A DNA stretch of 64,000 nt, from NCBI RefSeq assembly GCF_036964665.1, contig NZ_JBAMDA010000001.1:2456001-2520000 (forward strand), in the 5' to 3' direction. The position numbers and the translations under genes are program-made. Source of the DNA: Nitrobacter sp. NHB1. GTDB taxonomy: Bacteria > Pseudomonadota > Alphaproteobacteria > Rhizobiales > Xanthobacteraceae. How positions within the stretch are numbered: position 1 is the stretch's first letter; each line of letters starts with the position of its first letter. The notes beneath the pieces are model-generated. The model was given only the letters and a program-made list of their open reading frames with translations, ran no database searches and was not told where the DNA came from. This document shows, piece after piece, positions 2,751-33,306 of the stretch.

Positions 2751-3635
2751 CTAAGACCCCTTCGAATCCAGCCGTTTCAAAATCTCGTCGAGCTGATCGA
2801 GGTCGCGATAGCGGATCTGGACGAGGCCGCCGGGATTTTTGTGATCGACTGTCACGGCGAGGCCGAGCGCATCGCTGACGCGTTTTTCCAGCGCGAGCGT
2901 ATCGGGGTCCTTCTGCACCCTGTCGGCGCGCGCCTTCTGCGGCTTGCGCTCCGGTACGCCCTCCTCATGCGCCAGCGCTTCGGCCTGCCGCACGTTGAGG
3001 CCTTCGGCGACGATTCGCCGCGCCGCCGTGGACGGATCGGGCACGCCGATCAGCGCGCGCGCATGGCCCGCCGACAGCTCGCCGGAGGCGATCAGCGCCT
3101 GCACATCGTCAGGCAGTTTCGTCAGCCGCATCATGTTGGCGACATGGCTGCGGCTCTTGCCGACGATTTTTGCGATATCGTCCTGAGTGCGTTTGAATTC
3201 ACTGGCGAGCGCGTGATAGCCCTGCGCCTCTTCCATCGCGTTGAGATTTTCGCGCTGCACGTTCTCGATGATGGCGATCTCGAGCGCGACATTATCGGTG
3301 ACATCCACCGGGACAATCGGAACCTCGTGCAGCCCCGCCGACTGCGCCGCGCGCCAGCGGCGCTCGCCGGCGATGATCTCAAAGCGATCCTGCGCACCCT
3401 TCACCGGGCGCACCACGATCGGCTGGATCACGCCGTGCTGTTTGATGGAGTCGGATAATTCGCCGAGTTCGGCCTCAGCAAATGCGCGGCGCGGATTGCG
3501 TGGATTGGGTTTTAAAAATTCGATCGGCACCTTGCGCTGCGCGCGCGGGCGTTCGGCGTGTGCGGCCTCGCCGCCGACGTCACCGATCAGACTTGCAAGA
3601 CCGCGGCCCAGTCGCGAACGCGCTTCGTCGGCCAT
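2751..3635 (-). CDS. parB: Chromosome-partitioning protein ParB
   Basis: ParB/Spo0J DNA-binding CTPase, 294 residues from the ATG at 3635, which has a good ribosome site (AGGGAG); an upstream in-frame start at 3665 lacks one. It loads on parS and spreads as a clamp to guide origin segregation with ParA. Visible parts are the N-terminal ParA-stimulating stretch RSRLGRGLASLIGD, the ParB nuclease-like fold with the CTP motif GERRWRAA (about residues 90-97), and the helix-turn-helix TQDDIAKIVGKSRSHVANMMRL. A C-terminal dimerisation tail ends LDEILKRLDSKGS. parA lies upstream on the same strand, 212 bp away, separated by a REP-like element rather than abutting. Three parS-like sites lie 1.7-4 kb upstream. 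Confidence 0.97.
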   Translation of the reverse strand: MADEARSRLGRGLASLIGDVGGEAAHAERPRAQRKVPIEFLKPNPRNPRRAFAEAELGELSDSIKQHGVIQPIVVRPVKGAQDRFEIIAGERRWRAAQSAGLHEVPIVPVDVTDNVALEIAIIENVQRENLNAMEEAQGYHALASEFKRTQDDIAKIVGKSRSHVANMMRLTKLPDDVQALIASGELSAGHARALIGVPDPSTAARRIVAEGLNVRQAEALAHEEGVPERKPQKARADRVQKDPDTLALEKRVSDALGLAVTVDHKNPGGLVQIRYRDLDQLDEILKRLDSKGS

Positions 3636-3688
3636 CGCCAGCTCCCTTGGATTCACGCGCAGCACTCCACACCTGCTTGTCCAGGCGT

Positions 3689-3793
3689 CGTCATTGCGAG
3701 GAGCTCAGTTCCTCGCCTTCGAGGAACGATAGCGACGAAGCAATCCAGTTCTCGTGCGGCTTTCTGGATTGCTTCGCTGCGCTCGCAATGACG
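3689..3793. repeat. REP-like palindromic pair (type A) between parA and parB
   Basis: First half 3689-3748 (CGTCATTGCGAGGAGCTCAG through CAATCCAG) is the long variant, the inverse of the long half at 1201-1259. The second half is 3764-3793 (CTGGATTGCTTCGCTGCGC through CAATGACG). It fills most of the parA-parB gap, where these genes usually lie close together, so the element probably inserted inside the par operon. Confidence 0.85.
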
Positions 3794-3847
3794 TCCTGCA
3801 TGTTTCGTTTTGTTCATCCACCTCCGTGACCGGAGGTAGTGGTTCCT

Positions 3848-4720
3848 TCAATGCGTCGTGCGCAGCTCGCGCTCGCGCTGGATCACCTCGGTCGCGAGCT
3901 TCAGATAGGCTTCGCTGCCGCTGCATTTGAGATCGTAGACCAGCACCGGCTTGCCGTAGGACGGCGCTTCCGAAATGCGCACGTTGCGCGGGATCATGGT
4001 GTCGTAGACTTTCGAGCCCATGAACTGGCGCACGTCGGCAACCACCTGGTTCGACAGGTTGTTGCGCGAGTCGAACATGGTCAGCACGATGCCGTGGATC
4101 GACAGATTCGGATTGAGCGTGGAGCGCACCTGCTCGACCGTCTGCAACAGTTGCGACAGGCCCTCAAGCGCGAAGAACTCGCATTGCAGCGGCACCAGGA
4201 TCGCATCCGACGCCGCCATGGCGTTGACCGTGAGAAGGTTGAGCGACGGCGGACAGTCAATGAGCACATAGGTGTAATCGCTGTTGTCGGCCGCGTTGCC
4301 GTTGAGCGCGGCGATCGCATCGCGCAGGCGGAAGGCGCGATCCTTGGTGGTGCCGAGCTCGAGTTCCAGACCGGAGAGGTCCATGGTCGATGCCGCGATG
4401 TGCAGACGCGGCACCGCGGTCGGCACCACGGCATCACGCAGCGGCGCTTCGCCGATCAGCACGTCGTAGGTGGAGACGTTGCGATCGCGGCGGTCGATGC
4501 CGAGGCCGGTCGAGGCGTTGCCTTGCGGATCGAGATCGACGATCAGCACGCGCTCGCCGATTGCGGCGAGCGCGGTGCCGAGATTGATCGCCGTCGTGGT
4601 CTTGCCGACGCCGCCCTTCTGGTTGGCAAGCGAAATGATCCGGGGATGGCCGGCAGTGGACCCGGAATCCTTGCCATCATCTTGATAAATCTCATCAATT
4701 ATCGTCATGCGCGACGCCAT
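3848..4720 (-). CDS. parA: Chromosome-partitioning ATPase ParA
   Basis: ParA/Soj/MinD-family ATPase, 290 residues from the ATG at 4720; an alternative ATG at 4708 would give an ATGA overlap with the rsmG stop. It binds nucleoid DNA as an ATP dimer and pulls ParB-parS complexes. The deviant Walker A motif is KGGVGKTT (residues 35-42), followed by VLIVDLDPQGNASTGLG and the Walker B-like YVLIDCPPSLNLLTVNAM. The C-terminus (MIPRNVRISEAPSYGKPV) is characteristic of chromosomal ParA. It lies directly downstream of rsmG and upstream of parB, the conserved rsmG-parA-parB order near bacterial origins. Confidence 0.97.
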   Translation of the reverse strand: MASRMTIIDEIYQDDGKDSGSTAGHPRIISLANQKGGVGKTTTAINLGTALAAIGERVLIVDLDPQGNASTGLGIDRRDRNVSTYDVLIGEAPLRDAVVPTAVPRLHIAASTMDLSGLELELGTTKDRAFRLRDAIAALNGNAADNSDYTYVLIDCPPSLNLLTVNAMAASDAILVPLQCEFFALEGLSQLLQTVEQVRSTLNPNLSIHGIVLTMFDSRNNLSNQVVADVRQFMGSKVYDTMIPRNVRISEAPSYGKPVLVYDLKCSGSEAYLKLATEVIQRERELRTTH

Positions 4721-5616: not shown

Positions 5617-5632
5617 TGTTTCACGTGAAACA
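5617..5632. promoter_or_regulatory. Perfect parS site
   Basis: TGTTTCACGTGAAACA, a perfect 16-bp palindrome identical to the widely conserved ParB-binding consensus. It lies between rsmG and mnmG, about 2 kb from parB and 9 kb from the candidate origin. It is probably the main ParB nucleation site in this window. Confidence 0.95.
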
Positions 5633-7610: not shown

Positions 7611-7626
7611 GGTTTCACGTGAAACA
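7611..7626. promoter_or_regulatory. parS-like site (one mismatch)
   Basis: GGTTTCACGTGAAACA, 15 of 16 matches to the parS consensus, differing only at the first base. It is in the 176-bp gap between mnmG and the end of mnmE. With the sites at 5317 and 5617 it forms a cluster spread over 2.3 kb, as in other alphaproteobacteria that carry several parS copies near the origin. Confidence 0.9.
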
Positions 7627-7699: not shown

Positions 7700-9076
7700 T
7701 TACTTACCAATGCAGAAATCGCGAAAGAGTGAATCTAGAATATCATCAATATCGACGCGCCCGAGCAGCCGCCCGATCAATCGGACCGCAGTTCTGATCT
7801 CCTCCGCCACCAGCTCGTCGCCCTGCCCGACCAGGTCTTCCGCCTTCGCAAGCGATGCTGCGGCATCCCGCAATATGTTGCGGTGCCGTAAACGGGTGAT
7901 GACGGCGGCTTCGCCCGAACCGAACCAGGTGTCCGAAAACGCAGTCAGTGCCGCCACCAGTTCATCGACGCCATCGCCGCGCGACGCCGAAATCCGGAAA
8001 CGCCGCGTCGAGACACCCTGCCCCAGGTCCGCCTCTAGCTGCCTCGGGTTCGCCCCATCGTTTTCAGGGCCCGAAAGATCGACCTTGTTGCGCACCAGCC
8101 AGAGCGGCGCTCCGCCTTCGCCGATCGTTTGCGATGGACCGACATCGTCCGTGTCGTCATCCGCAAGCCACAGCACCAGATCCGCGGACGCTGCCCGGTC
8201 GCGCGCGCGCCGCACACCCTCCTGCTCGACCGGATCGTCGGTCTCGCGAATGCCAGCGGTATCGATCAACGTCACCGGATAACCATCGAGATCGAGATGC
8301 ACTTCGATGACATCGCGCGTGGTTCCGGCATGCGGCGACACGATCGCCGCCTCGCGACGGGCGAGACGATTGAGCAACGTCGACTTGCCGGCGTTGGGCG
8401 GGCCTGTGATCGCGACCGTCAGGCCGTCGCGCAGCCGTTCACTTTGTGCCGATGCCGCAAGGGTTTCTTCGATCTCGCGCCGAAGCCGCGCGATCTTCGC
8501 CATCGCGGGCTTCAACAGGTCATCCGGCACGTCGCCTTCATCGGCAAAATCGATTCCGGCCTCGATCAGGGCCGACGCCTCGATCAACTCCCTGCGCCAC
8601 TCCCTCGCGCGGTCGCCGAGCAGTCCCTGCAATTGCCGCAGCGCTTGCCGGCGCTGCCGGTCGGTATCGGCATGGATGAGATCGTCGAGCCCTTCGGCCT
8701 CGGTGAGATCGATCTTGCCGTTCTCGAACGCACGCCGGGTAAACTCTCCCGGCTCGGCAGGTCTCACATTGTCAATCGACAACAGCGCCGCGGACAAGGC
8801 ATTCAGCACCGCGCGGCCGCCGTGAACGTGAAACTCCGCGACATCTTCGCCGGTCGCGCTCACAGGCCCAGCGAACCACAAAACAACTGTATCATCAATG
8901 GCTTCTCCCCGCCGATCGCGCAGCAAGACCCGCTTCGCCGAGCGCGCCACGGGAATTGCGCCTGCGATTTTTTGAAGTGCGGTGCCAGCCTCCGTGCCCG
9001 AGACTCGCACGACGGCGATCGCCGACGGCGGCCGGCCCGATGACAGGGCGAAGATCGTTTGCTCTCGCGGATGCAT
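7700..9076 (-). CDS. mnmE: tRNA modification GTPase MnmE
   Basis: MnmE (TrmE), 458 residues, full length. The N-terminal folate-binding domain begins with the family pattern [22 protein letters not shown] helical domain follows, with a Ras-like G domain inserted: GPPNAGKS at residues 225-232, [23 protein letters not shown] and NKVD. It ends in FRDFCIGK, the invariant C-terminal cysteine motif. It acts with MnmG on tRNA U34. The ATG at 9076 is 113 bp from the divergent DUF255 gene, so the two probably share a promoter region. Confidence 0.97.
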
Positions 9077-9189
9077 TGCTTATTGTCTTGTCCAGCTTCG
9101 GCGACAGACGGAAAATTCAGAACGACAGCGGCAAACCTTTACACCGCAAGCTTTCCGTTATCGCATATTCGAAAGAAGGACGCCTCGAT

Positions 9190-11241
9190 ATGAATCACGC
9201 CGCTACAGGTTCGGGCCGTCCCGTGAATCGCTTGGCTGCGGAAACGAGCCCCTATCTGCTGCAGCACCAGCATAATCCGGTCGACTGGTGGCCGTGGGGA
9301 CCCGAGGCGCTCGCCGAGGCGCAGCGGACCAACCGTCCGATCGTGCTGTCGATCGGCTACGCTGCCTGTCACTGGTGCCATGTCATGGCGCATGAGAGTT
9401 TCGAGGACGACGAGGTCGCCGCGGTGATGAACGAACTGTTCGTCTGTATCAAGGTCGACCGCGAGGAGCGGCCGGATATCGATCAGATCTACATGAACGC
9501 ACTGCATCTTCTCGGCGAGCAGGGCGGCTGGCCGATGACGATGTTCCTGTCACCCGATGGATCGCCGTTCTGGGGCGGTACATATTTTCCGAAACTACCT
9601 GACTTCGGCCGCCCGGCATTTACCGATGTGCTGCAATCAGTGGCGCGGGTTTTTCACGACAAACCCGAGAGAGTCACGCTGAACCGCGATGCGGTGATCG
9701 CGCGGCTCTCCGAACGCACCAAGGCGGAAAGCCCGGCGAATCTCGGCATCGCCGAACTCAACAATGCGGCCGCCTCTATTGCGCGTTCAACCGATCCGGT
9801 GAACGGCGGCCTGCACGGCGCGCCGAAGTTTCCGCAATGCTCCGTGCTGGAATTTCTCTGGCGCGCCGGAGCGCGCACCGGCGACGAACGTTTGTTCGCA
9901 GCCACCACGCTGACCCTGACGCGGATGAGTCAGGGCGGCATCTACGATCACCTCGGCGGCGGCTACGCGCGCTATTCGGTCGACGACAGATGGCTGGTGC
10001 CGCATTTCGAGAAGATGCTTTACGACAACGCGCAGATTCTCGATTTGCTTGCGCTCGACTACGCACGCAGCAAAAACCCGCTGTACCGCGAACGCGCGAT
10101 CGAGACCGTCGATTGGCTGCGCCGGGAAATGCTGACGGGCGAGGGCGGCTTTGCCTCCTCACTCGACGCCGACTCCGAAGGCAAGGAGGGCAAGTTCTAT
10201 GTCTGGTCGCTGAGCGAACTCGAAGAGGTGCTCGGCGCTGCCGACGCCGCCGATTTTGCCGCGCGATACGACATCACCGAAAACGGCAATTTTGAAGGCC
10301 GCAACATTCTCAATCGGTTGAAGAGCGCCGGCCTCGGCAGCGACGACGGCGCCCACATGCGGACGCTGCGCGCGAAACTTCTGGCGCGCCGCGCAGGTCG
10401 CGTCCGTCCGGGACTCGACGACAAGGTTCTCGCAGACTGGAACGGCTTGATGATCGCGGCACTCGTTCACGGAGCCTGCGCCTTCGATTTGCCGGACTGG
10501 CTGGAAACCGCCCGCACGGCCTTCGCGTTCATTCGGAAGACAATGACGCGCGGCGACCGGCTCGGCCATTCCTGGCGCGAGGGCAGGCTGCTGGTGCCGG
10601 CGCTGGCTTGCGACTATGCCGCGATGGTCCGCGCCGCGCTCGCGTTGTATGAGGCGATCGGCGACAACGCGTATCTCGAGCAGGCGCTGCGCTGGCAGGC
10701 TGCCCTCGACACACATTATGCCGACGTCGAGCATGGCGGCTATTATCTCACGGCCGACGACGCGGAGGGGCTGATCGTGCGGCCGCACTCGACGATCGAC
10801 GATGCCATTCCGAACTATAACGGACTGATTGCGCAAAACCTGGTGCGCCTCGCGACACTGACCGGCGATCCGAAGTGGCGCGACCGGATCGACGCCCTGT
10901 TCGGCGCCCTTTTGTCCCGCGCGGCCGAGAACGGCTTTGGCCATCTGGCGCTGCTGAGTGCGCTCGATCTCCGTCTGACCGGCGCGGAAATCGTCGTGGT
11001 CGGCGAGGGTGCACAAGCCGACGCGCTGCTCAACGCCGCACGCGCACTGCCGCACGCCACGAGCATCGTGTTGCACGTGCCGAACGCCGATACGCTGCCG
11101 GCCGAACATCCCGCGCGCGCCAAGGCCGATTCCGTGCAAGGCGCGGCGGCATTCGTGTGCCGCAATCAAAGTTGCTCACTGCCCGTCGCTGAACCAGCAA
11201 ACCTGATTGCATTGGTAGCGAATCAAATCACAGGTTCTTAG
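9190..11241 (+). CDS. DUF255 thioredoxin-fold / six-hairpin protein (YyaL, SPATA20-like)
   Basis: 683 residues from the ATG at 9190, which is preceded by GAAGGA; the frame is open further upstream into mnmE, but that part is not expected to be coding. The N-terminus is the DUF255 thioredoxin-like domain ([20 protein letters not shown], then [16 protein letters not shown] with a CxxC-type CHWC pair). It is followed by a long all-helical (alpha/alpha)6 region of the type found in N-acylglucosamine 2-epimerases. The molecular function of this widespread family is not established; a redox or carbohydrate role is only inferred from folds. Monocistronic by layout. Confidence 0.9.
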
Positions 11242-11328
11242 TTTAGGGAGTCTTAAGCAACAGCGGGCCCGGTATAGGTCCTCATGACTGGTAAGCCGCC
11301 CTTAATGCGATCCGGTTAGCGTTTGCCC

Positions 11329-12300
11329 ATGTCATCGGACTCCTTGGACCTTACGGCATTCAGACCAGCAAACCGGATTATCTGGTTGATCATCCTGGCC
11401 ATGATCGGCGCGCTCGCCGTAAGCTATTGGGCCGCCGGCTTGTCACTTGATCTCCAAAGCGGTTGGAAGATCCTGATCGTCATCCCGGTGTGTCTCTCGG
11501 TGGCGTGGTACTACCGCTACCGCCGGGTTGACCCTTGGATAGCAACGGGCGCGGAATCGGCTGCTCAATTTACCCTGATCCTGTTGCTTGGCACACTCTT
11601 AAGTTATGCCGCCGCCGCTCCAGCGTTTCCATATCGCGACGCCGAACTTTATGCCGCGGACAGGATACTTCATTTCGACTGGCGATCTTACCTCGCGTTC
11701 TTTAACGCGCATCCTGCGTTGGGCTATATTGGCAACATCGTCTACTTCTCGATGAAGCTACAGATTCCAATTGTCCTGATTGTTTTGCTGGCGACATCGA
11801 GAATTGCGAAACTGCAGCAGTTCATCATCGCGACCGCGGCATCGCTCATCATCACGCTTGCCATCTTCACCTTCGTGCCGGCGGTGGCCTACTATGCCTA
11901 TCTCGGAATTCAGCCGTCGGATTTCGCTAATCTTCACCCTTCGACTCCTTATGCTCACATTCGGCATCTTGAGGGAATCCGCAATGGACTCGTGCATGTT
12001 GTCCGCTTCAATGACCTCGAAGGCCTGATCACCTTCCCAAGCTTTCACACCGTCTCGGCGCTGCTCTACATCTGGGCTCAGTGGCCGATTCGGTGCCTGC
12101 GTTGGCCCGCCGTCGCTCTCAATCTCCTGATGGTCGCATCGACGCCCATCGACGGCGCACACTATGCCATCGACATCATCGGCGGAATCGGTGTCGCCAT
12201 CATTGCGATTGGCCTAACCAATCGCATGACACGTGGAATTGAAGAAAAGTCAGATGTGCTATCGAAACACGATAGCTTGCCTTCCTCCAGGCCGGCATAA
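11329..12300 (+). CDS. PAP2-superfamily membrane phosphatase
   Basis: Integral membrane protein of 323 residues with about six hydrophobic segments. The PAP2/Ipt1-like active site is visible in the second half: the GLITFPSFHTVSALLY box (serine-phosphate and histidine region) and PIDGAHYAIDIIGG with the catalytic histidine and aspartate. These enzymes dephosphorylate or transfer phosphate groups of lipids such as phosphatidic acid, undecaprenyl pyrophosphate or inositol lipids; the substrate is unknown here. The ATG at 11329 is preferred over an upstream TTG at 11323, and no clear ribosome site is seen. Its stop overlaps the T-run side of the rho terminator on the other strand. Confidence 0.85.
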   Translation: MSSDSLDLTAFRPANRIIWLIILAMIGALAVSYWAAGLSLDLQSGWKILIVIPVCLSVAWYYRYRRVDPWIATGAESAAQFTLILLLGTLLSYAAAAPAFPYRDAELYAADRILHFDWRSYLAFFNAHPALGYIGNIVYFSMKLQIPIVLIVLLATSRIAKLQQFIIATAASLIITLAIFTFVPAVAYYAYLGIQPSDFANLHPSTPYAHIRHLEGIRNGLVHVVRFNDLEGLITFPSFHTVSALLYIWAQWPIRCLRWPAVALNLLMVASTPIDGAHYAIDIIGGIGVAIIAIGLTNRMTRGIEEKSDVLSKHDSLPSSRPA

Positions 12301-12362: not shown

Positions 12363-13628
12363 TTAGGTATTCATCGACTCGAAGAATTCCGCGTTATTCT
12401 TGGTGTTGCGCAATTTGTCGAGCAGGAAGTCGATCGCATCCATGGTGCCCATCGGGTTGAGGATACGCCGCAACACGTACATTTTCTTGAGCAGTTGCGG
12501 ATCGGTGATGAGTTCTTCCTTGCGCGTGCCCGAGCGCGAGATATCGATCGCCGGGAAGGTACGCTTGTCGGAGACTTTGCGGTCGAGGATAAGCTCGGAA
12601 TTGCCGGTGCCCTTGAACTCCTCGAAGATCACTTCGTCCATGCGGCTGCCGGTATCGACCAGCGCGGTGGCGATGATGGTCAGCGAGCCGCCTTCCTCGA
12701 TGTTGCGCGCCGCGCCGAAGAATCGCTTCGGCCGCTGCAAGGCGTTGGCATCGACGCCGCCGGTCAGCACCTTGCCGGAGGACGGCACCACGGTATTGTA
12801 GGCGCGGCCCAGACGCGTAATCGAATCCAGCAGAATGACGACGTCGCGACCGTGCTCGACCAGGCGCTTGGCCTTCTCAATGACCATCTCGGCGACCTGG
12901 ACATGGCGCACGGCCGGCTCGTCGAAAGTTGAGGACACGACTTCGCCCTTCACCGAGCGCTGCATGTCGGTGACTTCCTCCGGGCGTTCGTCGATCAGAA
13001 GCACGATCAGATAGCACTCGGGATGATTGGCGGTGATGGAGTGCGCGATATTCTGCATCAGCACGGTCTTGCCGGTGCGCGGCGGCGCCACGATCAGCGC
13101 ACGCTGACCCTTGCCGATCGGAGCAACGATATCGATGACCCGCGCCGACAGATCCTTGCGTGTCGAGTCTTCCAGTTCGAGCCGGAACCGCTGATCGGGG
13201 AACAGCGGCGTCAGGTTGTCGAAATTGACCTTGTGCTTTGACTTCTCGGGGTCCTCGAAATTGAGTGTGTTGACCTTCAACAACGCGAAGTAACGCTCGC
13301 CCTCCTTGGGGCTGCGAATGTGACCTTCAATGGTGTCTCCGGTTCGCAGGCCGAAGCGGCGAATCTGCGATGGCGAGACGTAGATATCGTCGGGGCCCGG
13401 CAGATAGTTGGCGTCCGGCGAGCGCAGGAATCCGAATCCGTCGGAGAGAACCTCGACGACGCCTTCGCCGATGATATCGATTTCCTGAATGGCCAGCTGT
13501 TTGAGAATGGCGAACATCAGCTCCTGCTTGCGCATGGTGCTGGCATTTTCGACCCCAAGCTCTTCCGCAAACGAGACGAGTTCAGCTGGCGTCTTGGCCT
13601 TGAGGTCTTGAAGTTTCATTTCCCGCAT
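12363..13628 (-). CDS. rho: Transcription termination factor Rho
   Basis: Hexameric RNA helicase that ends transcription, 421 residues. The N-terminal helix-rich domain begins [20 protein letters not shown]. The cold-shock-like RNA-binding domain follows ([20 protein letters not shown]), then the RecA-type motor with APPRTGKT (Walker A, residues 181-188), [14 protein letters not shown] (Walker B) and the Q-loop/R-loop region [25 protein letters not shown]. It has no insert domain. The ATG at 13628 gives the family N-terminus. hemJ lies upstream on the same strand, the hemJ-rho pair known beside alphaproteobacterial origins. Confidence 0.98.
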
Positions 13629-13964: not shown

Positions 13965-14384
13965 TTAAGGCTTGACGATGACCAGAATAACAATACCGAC
14001 CATTAAGGCAGTCACTACCTCATTGATAATACGATAGAATCTCTGACTCATCACATTGCGGTCCGCCGCGAAATCCCGCACGCGGCGGGCGAAGTAGCCG
14101 TGAATGGCGGACATCACGATCACGAGCGCCAGCTTCCCTTGAAACCAGCCCACCGAATACCAATGGTGCGCCCACATCATATAAAGCCCGAGCCCCCAGG
14201 CTACCATCATCGCGGGATTGATGATCGCCTTGAAGAGCCGCCGTTCCATCACCTTGAACGTCTCGGATTGCTTCGAGCCGATCTCTGCATCGCAGTGATA
14301 AACGAACAGCCTTGGCAGATAGAGCATCCCCGCCATCCAGGAAATGACGGCAATCACATGAAACGCCTTGATCCACTCGTACAT
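13965..14384 (-). CDS. hemJ: Protoporphyrinogen oxidase HemJ
   Basis: 139-residue membrane protein of the HemJ (UPF0093) family, which oxidises protoporphyrinogen IX to protoporphyrin IX in bacteria lacking HemG/HemY. Four hydrophobic helices are visible. The conserved histidine is in KAFHVIAVISWMAGMLYLPRLFVYH (first helix and loop), and the conserved lysine is in the WFQGKLALV segment. It sits upstream of rho, as in other alphaproteobacteria. However, hemE and hemH, which usually accompany it at this locus, are not present in the window. Confidence 0.93.
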   Translation of the reverse strand: MYEWIKAFHVIAVISWMAGMLYLPRLFVYHCDAEIGSKQSETFKVMERRLFKAIINPAMMVAWGLGLYMMWAHHWYSVGWFQGKLALVIVMSAIHGYFARRVRDFAADRNVMSQRFYRIINEVVTALMVGIVILVIVKP

Positions 14385-14846
14385 CGGCCATCTCGCTCAG
14401 GGTGTCCCAACCATTATCCGATCCGCTGGAACGTCCGACCCGCGTCAGCGTTGCAACAGTGATGGATAGAGACCCGATCATGGCGATATCCGCAAGCGAC
14501 TCTTTTCTAAAAGTAAATTTTTAGATTCTAGGGTTAGAGTCTAAGTGACGGTGAATTGCGCCGGCGCAATGCTGTCCTCGCTTTTTCAAAAGCTTGCTCA
14601 CATTGCCCGAGGATCCATGGCATTCAGCGATAAATCCAAAGACCATCGCGGCCTCAAATACTTACCCCTCCTTCGCACATGATTATCAAGAGACAAGTCC
14701 ACACGACCTCATTATCATCGGTGGCGTGTGGTGGAGTTTTCCAACCGCGAGGCCTGTGAAGAAAAATCCCGGTTATCCCGAGGCTTTCGCCGGATCAGCG
14801 GTATTGCGGCTCAAACTCCACAGCGATACACAGGGTATACAGGGTC
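14385..14846. other. Candidate chromosomal replication origin (oriC)
   Basis: Gene-free 462-bp region between hemJ (minus) and ppsR (plus). It contains AT-rich stretches (for example around 14503-14540, TTTTCTAAAAGTAAATTTTT) in an otherwise GC-rich chromosome. It also has several degenerate DnaA-box-like words with two or more mismatches to TTATCCACA (TTATCAAGA near 14683, TTATCCCGA near 14772). The placement matches the hemE/RP001-type origin locus described for Caulobacter and Rickettsia, and the parS cluster is about 7-9 kb away, as in Caulobacter. No perfect DnaA box was found, so this is a positional inference. The region must also contain the promoters of the two divergent genes. Confidence 0.55.
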
Positions 14847-15689
14847 ATGGCGCCCATCACCGGCAGCAATTTTCATCTTCATCTGGTGTCCGATTCGACC
14901 GGCGAAACGCTGATCACGGTGTCGCGCGCGGTGGCCGCCCAATATGCCAATGTCACGCCTGTCGAACACGTCTACCCGCTGGTCCGTAGCCAGAAGCAAC
15001 TCGACCGCGTTCTCGCGGAAATCGAGGAAGCGCCGGGAATCGTTTTGTTCACGCTCCTGGAAAAGGATCTGGTGGCGCGCCTCGAGGCCAAGTGCCAGGA
15101 GATCAACAGTCCCAGCCTCTCGATTATCGGCCCCGTGATGCAGTTGTTTCAGGCCTATCTCGGCGCCGCCACGATCGGCCGCGTCGGCGCGCAGCACACG
15201 CTGAACGCGGACTATTTCAGGCGCATCGACGCCTTGAACTACACCATGATGCATGATGACGGACAGCACGTCGAAGGCCTGGAGGAGGCGGATGTCGTTC
15301 TGGTCGGCGTATCGCGCACGTCGAAAACGCCAACGTCGATCTACCTTGCCAACCGCGGCATCCGTACCGCTAACGTGCCGCTGGTGCCCGGCATTGCGAT
15401 TCCGCATCAACTCGAATCGTTGAGGACGCCCCTGGTCGTCAGCCTTCATGCCGCGCCCGAGCGTCTCATTCAGGTCCGGCAGAACCGGCTGTTGAGCATT
15501 GGGACGAGGGCGGGCAACGACACCTATATCGATCGTCAATCGGTTGCCGATGAGGTGACCTATGCCCGCCGCCTGAGCGCGAAGCACGACTGGGTCCAAC
15601 TGGACGTCACGCGTCGGTCGATCGAGGAGACCGCCGCGGCGATCATGAAGCTGTTTGCCGACCGGCAACGGCAGCGGCAGCCCGAGTAA
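14847..15689 (+). CDS. ppsR: Pyruvate, phosphate dikinase / PEP synthase regulatory protein
   Basis: Bifunctional kinase/pyrophosphorylase of the DUF299 family, 280 residues. It uses ADP to phosphorylate, and Pi to dephosphorylate, a threonine of pyruvate phosphate dikinase or PEP synthase. The N-terminal signature [19 protein letters not shown] and the P-loop-like [11 protein letters not shown] (residues 154-164) identify the family. The start is the ATG at 14847. It is the first gene of a ppsR-maf-coaE-dnaQ run reading away from the candidate origin; maf begins 9 bp after its stop. Confidence 0.93.
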
Positions 15690-15698
15690 GCACCGGCG

Positions 15699-16307
15699 AT
15701 GGCGGTCTGGCGCGAACCAAAACCCTTGATCCTGGCATCGCAAAGCCGGGTGCGTCAGGCCTTGCTTGCCAATGCCGGCCTGTCGTTCGAGACAATTCCG
15801 GCCGCGATCGACGAGCGAGCCGTTGAGCGGAGTTGTGGCCTGACGACTGGCGCCGAGATCGCCGTTCGCCTGGCTTGCGAAAAAGCTCGTGACGTTTCGT
15901 TGCGCTCGCCCGGCCGCTACGTCCTCGGGGCGGATCAGACGCTCGAATGCAATGGTTGCCTGTTCAACAAACCGGCCGGACGCGCGGGGGCGGCGGCACA
16001 TCTGCGTGCGCTGTCCGGCCGGACTCACACCTTGCATGCCGGTGTCGCTGTCGTGCGCGACGGCAGGCTGCTCTTTGAAGACGTATCGGTTGCCCGCATG
16101 ACGATGCGGGAGCTGAGCGAGGGCACGATCGAAGCCTATCTGAACGCGGTTGGCGATGCGGCCATGGCCAGCGTCGGCGCCTATCAGCTCGAGAACCTGG
16201 GCATCCATCTGTTCAGCCGGATCGAAGGCGATCATTTCACCATTCTGGGCTTGCCGCTGCTTCCGCTGCTTGCTTTTCTGCGCGATCAGGGGCTGCTGTT
16301 ATTGTGA
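15699..16307 (+). CDS. Maf-like nucleotide pyrophosphatase
   Basis: 202 residues of the Maf/YhdE/YceF family, nucleoside triphosphate pyrophosphatases that remove dTTP, UTP or modified pyrimidine nucleotides from the pool. The opening [19 protein letters not shown] is the Maf signature, ADQTLECNG carries the conserved aspartate, and [17 protein letters not shown] is near the end. The ITYE-type residues that separate substrate subgroups are not clear enough to assign one. Closely packed between ppsR and coaE, so probably co-transcribed. Confidence 0.9.
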
Positions 16308-16323
16308 CGTCGGAAGTTCGGAC

Positions 16324-16923
16324 ATGCTGGTGCTTGGGCTGACCGGATCGATCGGAATGGGAAAATCGACCACCGCGAAGCTTTTTTCGGAAGCCGGGGT
16401 GCCGGTTTACGATGCGGATGCGACCGTTCACGAAATCTATGAAGGAGAAGCGGCTCCGGCTATCGAGGCGGCGTTTCCCGGAACCACCCTCAACGGCAAA
16501 GTCGACCGCGAGAAATTGTCGGCAAAGGTCGTGCATGACGCCGCGGCCATGAAGCGGCTCGAACAGATCGTGCATCCGATGTTGCGCGCCTACCGTCAGG
16601 CGTTTCTCGACCGGGCCGAGCGATCGGGTGCTGAGGTGGCGGTTGTGGACGTGCCGCTGCTGTTTGAAACCGGCGGCGAAAAGTGTGTCGACGCGGTCGT
16701 CGTCGTTTCCACGACACCGGAAGTTCAACGCGAGCGCATTCTGGCCCGCGGCAACATGACGGGCGAAAAGCTGGATGCGATCCTGGCCCGGCAGTTGCCG
16801 GACGCTGAAAAGCGCAAGCGGGCGGATTTCGTAGTGGATACCTCGCACGGTCTTGATCACGTGCGCGAGCGAATCAGGGAAATCCTGGCCGGGGCTGCTA
16901 AAATGCCGCGGCGACGGCTCTGA
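16324..16923 (+). CDS. coaE: Dephospho-CoA kinase
   Basis: Last step of coenzyme A synthesis: phosphorylates the 3'-hydroxyl of dephospho-CoA with ATP. The 199-residue protein starts at the ATG at 16324, giving [16 protein letters not shown] with the P-loop GSIGMGKS (residues 8-15). It then has [14 protein letters not shown] and the lid [11 protein letters not shown]. The same frame is open upstream inside maf, but only from 16324 does it match the family. It follows maf by 16 bp and precedes dnaQ by 22 bp. Confidence 0.95.
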
Positions 16924-16945: not shown

Positions 16946-17665
16946 ATGCGCGAAATCGTCCTCGATACCGAAACGACCGGACTGGACCCGCTGCGCGGCG
17001 ATCGTGTGGTTGAGATCGGGTGTGTCGAAATTTTCAATCGCATGCCGACAGGGCAGACATTTCACCGCTACATCAATCCGGAACGCGACATGCCGCAGGA
17101 GGCGTTCGCGGTGCATGGCCTGTCGAGTGAGTTCCTTGCCGAGAAACCGCTATTTACCCATGTCGTGGATGAATTCCTGGAATTTATTGGCGACGCGCCG
17201 CTGGTCATCCATAATGCATCGTTCGATATCAGCTTTATCAATGCTGAGCTTGATCGCCTCAAAATGCGGACGATCGGACGCGACCGGTTGGTGGATACGC
17301 TGCTGCTGGCGCGGCGGAAGCACCCGGGCGTGTCGAACCGGCTCGACGATCTCTGCTCGCGCTATGCCATCGACAACTCCCGCCGCACCAAACACGGCGC
17401 GTTGCTCGACGCCGAACTGCTTGCCGAGGTCTATATCGATCTGATCGGTGCGCGGCAGTCGCAATTGATCCTGGCGGAAACCGCGTCCCGTCGAACCGGC
17501 GGGACGCTGGATATGCCAAGACGGCAACGAACTGTGCCTCTTGCGCCGCGCGTTACCGATGCCGACCGCATTGCGCATCGGGACTTTGTCGCCACGCTCG
17601 GCGAGAAGGCGATCTGGAAGGAATTCGCCGGGACCGAGGCTTTGAAGCAGGCCGTTTCAGATTAG
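16946..17665 (+). CDS. dnaQ: DNA polymerase III subunit epsilon
   Basis: Proofreading 3'-5' exonuclease of the replicase, 239 residues. DEDDh motifs are seen in order: Exo I VLDTETTGLDP (residues about 5-15), Exo II VIHNASFDISFINAEL, and Exo III with the histidine in RRTKHGALLDAELLAEVYIDL. The C-terminal part contains the polymerase-contact tail. It follows coaE closely and is the last gene of the run; a repeat element lies between it and convergent secB. Confidence 0.96.
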   Translation: MREIVLDTETTGLDPLRGDRVVEIGCVEIFNRMPTGQTFHRYINPERDMPQEAFAVHGLSSEFLAEKPLFTHVVDEFLEFIGDAPLVIHNASFDISFINAELDRLKMRTIGRDRLVDTLLLARRKHPGVSNRLDDLCSRYAIDNSRRTKHGALLDAELLAEVYIDLIGARQSQLILAETASRRTGGTLDMPRRQRTVPLAPRVTDADRIAHRDFVATLGEKAIWKEFAGTEALKQAVSD

Positions 17666-31065: not shown

Positions 31066-33306
31066 ATGGGCCGGAAAATCGTTCTGCTGTCCGACGGCAC
31101 CGGAAACTCCGCCGCAAAAGTCTGGCGCACCAATGTCTGGCGCACGTTCGAAGCGATCGATCTTTCGGGGTCGGATCAGGTGGCGTTCTACGACGACGGG
31201 GTTGGCACCTCGTCGTTCAAGCCGCTCGCCATTCTCGGCGGCGCTTTCGGCTTCGGGCTGAAGCGCAACGTCATCGATATCTACAAGTTCGCCTGCCGCA
31301 ACTGGCGCGACGACAGCGACGAGTTGTTCGGCTTCGGCTTCAGCCGCGGCGGCTTCACCATCCGCGTGGTGATGGGACTGATCCTCAATCAGGGTCTTGT
31401 CGCCGCCGACAATGAGGCCGAGCTGTCGCGAAAGGCCAAGGCCGCCTATCGCCAGTATCGGCGCGAGCGTTTCCATACGTTCTGGCACATCGAGGACATC
31501 TTCCGCGGCCTCCGCGACCTGTTTCTGCGGAAAGGCTACGACAAGCGCGACAATCGCCAGGTGGACCATATCCGCTTCATCGGCGTGTGGGACACCGTCG
31601 CCGCCTACGGCCTGCCGCTCGACGAGATGACGCGCGGCGTCAGCAAATGGATCTGGCCGCTGGAACTACCCAACCACACGCTCGACCGCACGCGCGTCAG
31701 GCGCGCCTGTCAGGCGCTGTCGCTCGACGAGCCGCGCACCACTTTCCATCCCGAATTGTGGGATGAGCGCGGCGCGCCGCCGCTCGCCCCGCGCGACGAC
31801 GGCAACCGCCATCTCGCGGACGAGCAGATCAGCCAGGTGTGGTTCGCCGGCGTGCATTCCAATGTCGGCGGCGGCTATCCGGACGATGCGCTGGCCTTCA
31901 TCCCGCTGGTCTGGATGCTGAGGCAGGCGGAGGCCTGCGGTCTGCGCCTCAAGTCGGATCGGGCGACGCCGCCGGCCGATCCCGATCCGCTCAAGAACGC
32001 CATCTCGATGTGCGACAAGGACGGCCGGCTCTACGATCCGCGCAAGGGGCTCGGCAGTTACTATCGCTACGGCCCGCGCAAACTGGCCGAACTTTGCAAC
32101 TTTCGCTTCTCCAGGAACGACGAAGTCGTCGTCACGCGGCCGAAGGTGCATGTCAGCGCGTTCAAGCGCATCGCCAGCCGCTCGCAAGACTATGCGCCGG
32201 TCGGGCTGCCGAAGATTTATGACGTCGCGACCGACGACGGGCTGGTGTTGACGCCGGATCAATACGGCTTCGAAAGCAGCGCCAAGGCGCTCGCTCGCTC
32301 CGAGACGCAGGAGTACGTCTGGAACACGATCTGGAAACGGCGGCTGGTCTATTTCGCCACCGTCGGCGCCACCGCGTGGCTGTTGCTTTATCCGCTGGCG
32401 CGCTCGCTGCCGGCGGCGGACGAATACACCAGCCCGATCCGCTGGGTGTCGGACATCATCCGCGTTGTCGGCGGGTTTCTTCCGGGTTTCGCGCAAACCT
32501 GGATCAACGCCTATGCGCGCAGCCCGGGCCAGTTTCTCGCGCTGCTCGCACTCGCGGGTGGTTTGACGTTCTGGGGGACGCGGCTCGCGACCCGCATCTC
32601 GGATTCGATGAATGCGATCTGGCAACGCTTGCCGACGGCGCCGACAGGCCTGCCGACCAACTGGATCTACCGGCTGCGCGCGAGCGGGCCCTATATCTGG
32701 TTTCACCGGCAGTTGAAGCGCCGCTGGGCGCCGACGTTCTTCGCAGGCTTGTTCGTTTATCTCGGCGTCACCCTCGGTAGCCATCTTATCTACAACGTGC
32801 AGGACGTCGCCGGCTTCACATGCGATGAAAGCCCGAAGATGCATGGGCTCGCGCGCGGCGAGCAGGCGACGTTCGATTTCAAAACGTCGCAGCCCTGCGC
32901 CGGCACCGGCATCGCGGTGGACGGTTTCGGCGCGCGCTATCTGGTCAAGGTCGAGACCACGCAGCCGTTCCGCGACGGAGATATCCCCTCGCCGCTAGGC
33001 GGATTCTACACCACCGACGCGCCGCGCTGGTCGCAACGCTTATGGCTGATGCTCGGCGTGCCGTTGCGCCGCGAACTGACGCGGCCGTGGTTCCGCCTGG
33101 TGCTGCGCTACGGCACGACCGGCGGCGAGGAGGTCTTTCTCGATCCCGATCCGGAGGACGGCAAGGTCGAGACGGTGATCCGGCCGACGCGCAGCGGCGA
33201 ACTTTTCATCTTCGTCAACGATGCGGTGCTGGGCATTCCCGGACTCTATGATGCGTTTTATCGCAACAATGAAGGCTCCGCCAAACTGGTCGTGACGCGC
33301 AAGTGA
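31066..33306 (+). CDS. DUF2235 alpha/beta-hydrolase with membrane segments
   Basis: 746 residues. The N-terminal part (residues 1-400) is a DUF2235 domain: it opens KIVLLSDGTGNSAAKVWRTN and has the nucleophile elbow GFGFSRGGF (G-F-S-R-G, S93) and the acid/base region GVHSNVGGGYPDD. This is the catalytic fold of type VI Tle1-like phospholipases, but no secretion genes are nearby. Three hydrophobic segments follow (about residues 425-445, 477-500, 555-575). A C-terminal extracytoplasmic beta domain then has two cysteines and ends NDAVLGIPGLYDAFYRNNEG, a pattern reminiscent of the PA-IL lectin end. Substrate unknown; I infer a membrane-tethered lipase or esterase. Confidence 0.85.
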   Translation: MGRKIVLLSDGTGNSAAKVWRTNVWRTFEAIDLSGSDQVAFYDDGVGTSSFKPLAILGGAFGFGLKRNVIDIYKFACRNWRDDSDELFGFGFSRGGFTIRVVMGLILNQGLVAADNEAELSRKAKAAYRQYRRERFHTFWHIEDIFRGLRDLFLRKGYDKRDNRQVDHIRFIGVWDTVAAYGLPLDEMTRGVSKWIWPLELPNHTLDRTRVRRACQALSLDEPRTTFHPELWDERGAPPLAPRDDGNRHLADEQISQVWFAGVHSNVGGGYPDDALAFIPLVWMLRQAEACGLRLKSDRATPPADPDPLKNAISMCDKDGRLYDPRKGLGSYYRYGPRKLAELCNFRFSRNDEVVVTRPKVHVSAFKRIASRSQDYAPVGLPKIYDVATDDGLVLTPDQYGFESSAKALARSETQEYVWNTIWKRRLVYFATVGATAWLLLYPLARSLPAADEYTSPIRWVSDIIRVVGGFLPGFAQTWINAYARSPGQFLALLALAGGLTFWGTRLATRISDSMNAIWQRLPTAPTGLPTNWIYRLRASGPYIWFHRQLKRRWAPTFFAGLFVYLGVTLGSHLIYNVQDVAGFTCDESPKMHGLARGEQATFDFKTSQPCAGTGIAVDGFGARYLVKVETTQPFRDGDIPSPLGGFYTTDAPRWSQRLWLMLGVPLRRELTRPWFRLVLRYGTTGGEEVFLDPDPEDGKVETVIRPTRSGELFIFVNDAVLGIPGLYDAFYRNNEGSAKLVVTRK

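Follow-up and report, generated by a model that had tools for sequence, protein, structure and literature searches.

The replication origin of Caulobacter crescentus, Cori, lies beside ppsR. Its DnaA boxes are weak, non-consensus G- and W-boxes (PMC4285127), and in Hyphomonas neptunium a marker-frequency maximum was reported close to hemE, with parAB about 7 kb from hemE (PMC6650430). For the Bradyrhizobiaceae (Rhodopseudomonas, Nitrobacter, Bradyrhizobium) the Ori-Finder report placed oriC beside gidA, proposed TGTTTCACG as the DnaA box and gave the palindrome TGTTTCACGTGAAACA for each of the ten genomes available at the time (PMC2275245); the TGTTTCACG motif was taken over by the Oligotropha genome paper (PMC3091675). 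We analysed a 64,000-nucleotide stretch of the genome of the nitrite-oxidising bacterium Nitrobacter sp. NHB1, hereafter the window (C1:2456001-2520000). The genome has 3,794,501 bases in four contigs, of which C1, the chromosome contig, has 3,306,651 bp. The gap between hemJ and ppsR at 14385-14846 is very probably the chromosomal oriC. It would be the ortholog of the origin found between hemE and ppsR in other Alphaproteobacteria, having lost hemE as its left neighbour.

This locus shares with Cori its place beside ppsR (hemE lies upstream of ppsR in 19 of 20 loci from the class or order, about 1.6 kb away in L191, with L199 the exception), weak candidate boxes that depart from the consensus, parABS within about 10 kb and the presence of CcrM. 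It differs from Cori in that hemE is not adjacent, the boxes are of the TYCACA type, CtrA sites of the form TTAA-N7-TTAA occur in 0 of 80 aligned gaps, and two GANTC sites lie inside an AT-rich block. The gene neighbourhood and the parS sequence are in common with H. neptunium, whereas hemE is kept there and the origin there was tested by experiment, that of Nitrobacter being predicted from sequence. The Ori-Finder oriC lies in the same 10-kb neighbourhood and near the same skew switch; it differs in that its element is parS, from which our proposed origin is separated by 7-9 kb on the right in Nitrobacter and by about 4-6 kb in most relatives.

The gap is 462 bases long, with bounds at exactly 14385 and 14846, and its sequence occurs once in the genome. 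To its left run parB-parA-rsmG-mnmG-mnmE (all minus strand), DsbH-like and PAP2-like genes (plus) and rho-hemJ (minus); to its right follow ppsR-maf-coaE-dnaQ (plus) and then secB (minus). NCBIfam models agree with the first-pass annotation, which had placed the region between hemJ-rho and ppsR-maf-coaE-dnaQ. The PpsR protein is 95% identical to that of Nitrobacter sp. 62-13 and groups with the Nitrobacter rows of a PpsR tree. The features of the locus are:

2751-4720, minus strand: partition genes parB (2751-3665) and parA (3848-4720)
5317: parS-like site, two mismatches
5617-5632: parS, exact TGTTTCACGTGAAACA, beside mnmG/gidA; read by the Ori-Finder rule as paired DnaA boxes
7611-7626: parS, one mismatch, in the mnmG-mnmE gap
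12363-13628, minus strand: rho (NCBIfam model)
13965-14384, minus strand: hemJ (protoporphyrinogen oxidase), left neighbour, reading away from the gap (NCBIfam TIGR00701, Pfam PF03653)
14385-14846: proposed oriC, the hemJ-ppsR divergent intergenic region (skew minimum, single copy, conserved across 80 aligned gaps)
14847-15689, plus strand: ppsR (kinase/pyrophosphorylase), right neighbour, reading away from the gap (NCBIfam and Pfam)
15699-16307, plus strand: Maf-like protein (NCBIfam model)
16150-16923, plus strand: CoaE, dephospho-CoA kinase (NCBIfam model)
16946-17665, plus strand: DnaQ (NCBIfam model)

The DsbH-like (DUF255) and PAP2 genes between mnmE and rho (8956-12300) point towards the proposed origin. 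The PAP2 gene is present in 1 of the 80 named relatives' loci and therefore looks like a recent insertion.

The three parS-like sites compare with 0.09 expected by chance. Those at 5617 and 7611, the exact and the one-mismatch copy, are 6.8-9.2 kb from the gap, in agreement with the 7-9 kb given by the first-pass annotation. They are also the two copies of TGTTTCACGTGAAACA with at most one mismatch in the genome, at C1:2461617 and C1:2463611, beside mnmG and the par genes. PMC7022226 gives TGTTTCACGTGAAACA as the parS of H. neptunium and TGTTNCACGTGAAACA as the consensus for chromosomal parS sites in general, and the predicted H. neptunium parS sites were assayed for ParB binding in vitro (PMC6650430). 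Our analysis did not bear out TGTTTCACG as a DnaA box; as a palindrome it is parS. Since TGTTTCACGTGAAACA is parS and its copies adjoin mnmG and the par genes, what the published rule selected was most likely the centromere, a site several kb from the proposed origin.

We examined strand asymmetry in sampled stretches of the genome and in 440 contiguous kb around the window. Over the 440 kb, cumulative GC skew (G-C) reaches its minimum at C1:2471471 (window 15471), which is 625 bp beyond the right end of the gap, and the GT-AC minimum is at C1:2471747 (window 15747). Both minima are inside or just past ppsR, less than 1 kb from the gap, so the origin reading of the first-pass annotation, which had named a skew minimum elsewhere as evidence against it, survived this test. 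In the sampled stretches, GC skew was mostly positive from the window's right part, past the end of the contig and on to about 0.8-0.9 Mb, including L039 (880 kb), and negative from about 1.0-1.01 Mb back to the window. This arrangement of signs puts one switch inside the window or close to it and the second around 1 Mb. At 970-990 kb (L007) the skew was slightly negative, yet polar motifs were forward only. The terminus (about 0.97-1.01 Mb) is placed by skew and motif polarity only, because two E. coli-derived patterns gave no match to dif.

Because the skew of a single genome, that of our strain, does not distinguish between the gap and parS, we added eight more genomes, with 50 kb on either side of ppsR in each. 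Raw skew minima in the nine genomes were scattered between -3.0 and +26.3 kb relative to ppsR. In all nine, our own included, the minimum fell to the ppsR side of the parS cluster; the GT-AC minimum of one genome (G140) was at -10.5 kb. Summed over the nine genomes, the curve was flat between about -3 and +8 kb and lowest at -2.5 kb. A change-point test on fourfold-degenerate sites, with coding strand as covariate, was best at -2.5 kb from ppsR across the nine genomes, with 0 kb equal to one decimal. The loss in log units was 6.1 at -4 kb, 4.6 at -5 kb, 6.7 at -6 kb, 12.5 at -9 kb and 8.8 at +5 kb, values that are overstated because neighbouring sites are non-independent and gene calls came from a simple heuristic. 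Alone, the two Nitrobacter genomes gave a flat curve, best at -4.5 kb, and our own genome was uninformative, best at +27 kb.

A second line of evidence came from GGGNAGGG, which we take to be an FtsK-type polar motif. Over the 440 kb, its counts to the left and right of the gap were 2 and 18 in forward and 13 and 6 in reverse orientation (Fisher p 2e-4); split at parS instead, p was 2e-3. In the nine genomes there were 2 forward and 13 reverse copies from -10 to -0.3 kb and 6 forward and 1 reverse from -0.3 to +10 kb, with mixed counts beyond +10 kb. The composition switch therefore coincides with the gap or lies less than about 3 kb away, at a resolution of a few kb, and asymmetry by itself disfavours the parS/gidA location.

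These results bear on the reading that the origin lies beside mnmG/gidA at the TGTTTCACGTGAAACA palindromes (5.3-7.6 kb of the window), with TGTTTCACG as DnaA box. In its favour are the published rule and its reuse for Oligotropha, the presence of the palindromes less than 10 kb from the skew switch, and the flat Nitrobacter-only curve. However, the palindrome matches parS and adjoins parB and parA, the nine-genome change-point likelihood drops over -4 to -9 kb, motif polarity between parS and the gap is of the left-arm type, and mnmE, rho and hemJ would meet forks head-on. We consider a gidA-side origin very improbable, and strand asymmetry points to the hemJ-ppsR gap instead.

If the gap is the origin, the family rule as printed by Ori-Finder labels a centromere-like site as an origin, in a group (Bradyrhizobium, Rhodopseudomonas, Nitrobacter, Afipia) that is important in the nitrogen and carbon cycles. 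Surveys built on such predictions may carry the error: one used DoriC origins and, where given, species-specific DnaA boxes (PMC8287927), and another ran Ori-Finder on 179 alphaproteobacterial genomes (PMC8116508). A 2026 paper remarks in general terms on DoriC entries that disagree with the true origin in some cases (PMC13342612). In the mostly open-access literature that we searched, the accessible texts contained no statement that the family's predicted DnaA box is parS and none naming the hemJ-ppsR gap, which is not to claim that nobody has noticed.

For lengths of 30 bp and of 50 bp, the least stable stretch of the 64-kb window lies in the gap itself, starting at 14500 and 14498 respectively, which bears out the AT-rich patches described in the first-pass annotation; at the 80-bp scale two other places in the window (7676 and 13977) are less stable. 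We aligned 79 relatives' gaps, from 80 named loci, with that of the window, giving 80 gaps of 411-603 bp with a mean pairwise identity of 0.56. Conserved blocks across the 80 gaps were ATATCCGCAAGC, TTTTAGAATCTTAGGTTTGAGTCTAAGTggCgGTGgATT, CTTGTTCACA, TTATcaAGAGACAAaTCCACA, CCTGTGAAGAA, GGGTTATCCC and TCCACAggGATTCACAG. The elements of the gap are:

14486-14497, plus strand: conserved ATATCCGCAAGC block bounding the core on the hemJ side, in which ATATCCGCA is two mismatches from TTATCCACA (alignment)
14498-14547: AT-rich block, proposed duplex-unwinding element (least stable stretch, strongly conserved)
14524-14528: GATTC, CcrM (GANTC) site; GANTC at this column in 76 of 80
14537-14541: GAGTC, CcrM (GANTC) site; GANTC at this column in 74 of 80
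14550-14558, plus strand: GGTGAATTG, conserved GGTGgATTg adjoining the AT-rich block; possibly a weak DnaA box in a BUS-like module (conservation; putative role)
14594-14602, plus strand: TTGCTCACA, degenerate DnaA-like box (TTGTTCACA in relatives); TYCACA in 58 of 80, one base decayed here
14695-14703, plus strand: AAGTCCACA, degenerate DnaA-like box; TYCACA in 64 of 80
14755-14763, minus strand: TTCTTCACA, degenerate DnaA-like box, two mismatches from TTATCCACA; TYCACA in 64 of 80
14773-14781, plus strand: TTATCCCGA within conserved GGGTTATCCC, half DnaA box (alignment)
14814-14822, plus strand: AACTCCACA, degenerate DnaA-like box; TYCACA in 62 of 80
14824-14832, plus strand: CGATACACA, decayed counterpart of the GGATTCACA box of relatives; TYCACA in 63 of 80 rows, lost here

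No copy of TTATCCACA with at most one mismatch was found in the gap and four have at most two (shuffle mean 1.1; 9 of 500 shuffles reach as many), consistent with the earlier remark that DnaA-box matches here are only degenerate. TYCACA is the 3' part of the DnaA box. The 80 gaps together have 335 copies, where shuffled sequences gave a mean of 33, and at five places it is kept in 58-64 of the 80; three of these five sites are intact in the window and the other two have one-base changes. The genome encodes a DnaA that reads GGRDHTTVLHAVRKIE in its DNA-binding domain, presumably close to the E. coli helix. Because this recognition helix looks unaltered, weak boxes are a simpler reading than a changed DnaA specificity. 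CcrM is also encoded (a 376-aa ORF matching CcrM 6pbd, E 6e-153). The evidence for GANTC is its conserved columns, since the three sites in the window's gap are not above the 2.46 expected by chance. The basal unwinding system (BUS) is described as a DnaA-box, a spacer and DnaA-trios (PMC8287927). The AT-rich block directly beside the box-like GGTGAATTG (GGTGGATT) resembles this arrangement; it differs in that, judged by eye and unscored, the trinucleotide repeats are clearer in distant relatives than in Nitrobacter.

In the mechanism that we propose, DnaA would load on the dispersed weak TYCACA/TTATCC boxes (14594-14832) and on the box-like GGTGAATTG, and would then melt the AT-rich block at 14498-14547, where the two CcrM sites may tie methylation state to the cell cycle. 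Replisomes would depart both ways, co-directionally with hemJ-rho to the left and with ppsR-maf-coaE-dnaQ to the right, and ParB at parS, 7-9 kb to the left, would segregate the new origins. It is conceivable, if doubtful, that across the family CcrM directly gates origin unwinding, with full or hemi-methylation altering duplex stability or DnaA access, and that one round per cycle is licensed in this way from a gap that has neither CtrA boxes nor consensus DnaA boxes.

The first-pass annotation had noted that hemE and hemH are missing from the window, and we located both elsewhere on the contig: hemE at C1:292297-293307, 2.2 Mb left of the window, and hemH at C1:1879668-1880639. Its conclusion that the locus has been rearranged holds in deep time but not as something recent or special, as hemJ is directly left of ppsR without hemE in all 79 named relatives' loci that hold hemJ (in the 80th, L050, the contig ends before hemJ). 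In other genera of the family, hemE lies between hemJ and ppsR in 16 of 20 sampled loci (L161, L164, L168 and L169 are without it). For hemH the earlier remark needs amending: homologues between hemJ and hemE are confined to loci from outside the family, with 14 of the 20 class or order loci against 0 of the 20 from the family. At least five changes in hemE presence are required on a PpsR tree of 42 rows. The rearrangement is therefore an old event that has recurred, and this genome is no special case.

We built a profile from the 80 gaps and searched 875 kb of our own genome, including the hemE and dnaA loci, where the sole match was the hemJ-ppsR gap. In relatives the profile matched the hemE-ppsR gap of G095 (183 bits), G039 (96), G045 (82), G038 (44) and G071 (28), with L249, L178/L251, L179/L250, L160/L252 and L162/L253 as the loci concerned; in the other sampled loci matches were weak or absent. 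Nothing significant was found at relocated hemE loci (best 2.2 bits, E 0.65, L241). Since the profile finds the hemE-ppsR gap and nothing significant at relocated hemE, the origin sequence stayed with ppsR when hemE left. This suggests that hemE, which serves as an indicator gene for origins, has moved away from the origin more than once, the origin itself remaining beside ppsR.

The orthology also bears on whether the gap could be the divergent promoter region of hemJ and ppsR and nothing else, conserved for regulation, with the origin elsewhere nearby. Divergent genes need promoters, and promoter elements may explain part of the conservation; however, the conserved blocks remain where the left gene is hemE and not hemJ, and the skew switch falls where TYCACA sites are repeated and the DNA is the least stable of the 64 kb, which makes this reading very improbable. 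The oriC reading, already put forward in the first-pass annotation, is supported by the skew and the polar motifs, by the duplex stability and conservation of the gap, and by its orthology to the gap between hemE and ppsR in relatives. In many other bacteria dnaA flanks the origin. An origin that sits at dnaA here (C1:2576 kb), or that moved with hemE (C1:292 kb), the gene that flanks the Caulobacter origin (PMC6650430), has next to no probability, as dnaA is 105 kb right of the skew minimum, hemE is well inside the positive-skew arm and the profile has no match at either locus within the 875 kb searched. Origins at hemE, at dnaA and at parS were each rejected as improbable for the reasons given above.

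Several minor observations were made in passing. Ten 258-aa frames in our genome (five on C1, one on C3, four on C4) have weak DnaA-domain matches with equal scores, and are probably copies of a multi-copy insertion element with an IstB-type ATPase. Within the window, 31066-33306 encodes a 746-aa protein with a T6SS Tle1-like phospholipase catalytic domain. hemE is normally essential. In two genomes of genus g23 (G023 and G063; L168, L169), both given as 100% complete, protein and Pfam searches found no hemE, and hemJ is missing from between rho and ppsR, whereas four other genomes of the genus keep hemE; G023 and G063 have possibly lost haem synthesis. In G066, hemE is in two overlapping pieces (C1:2620591-2621699), reflecting a frameshift or an assembly error.
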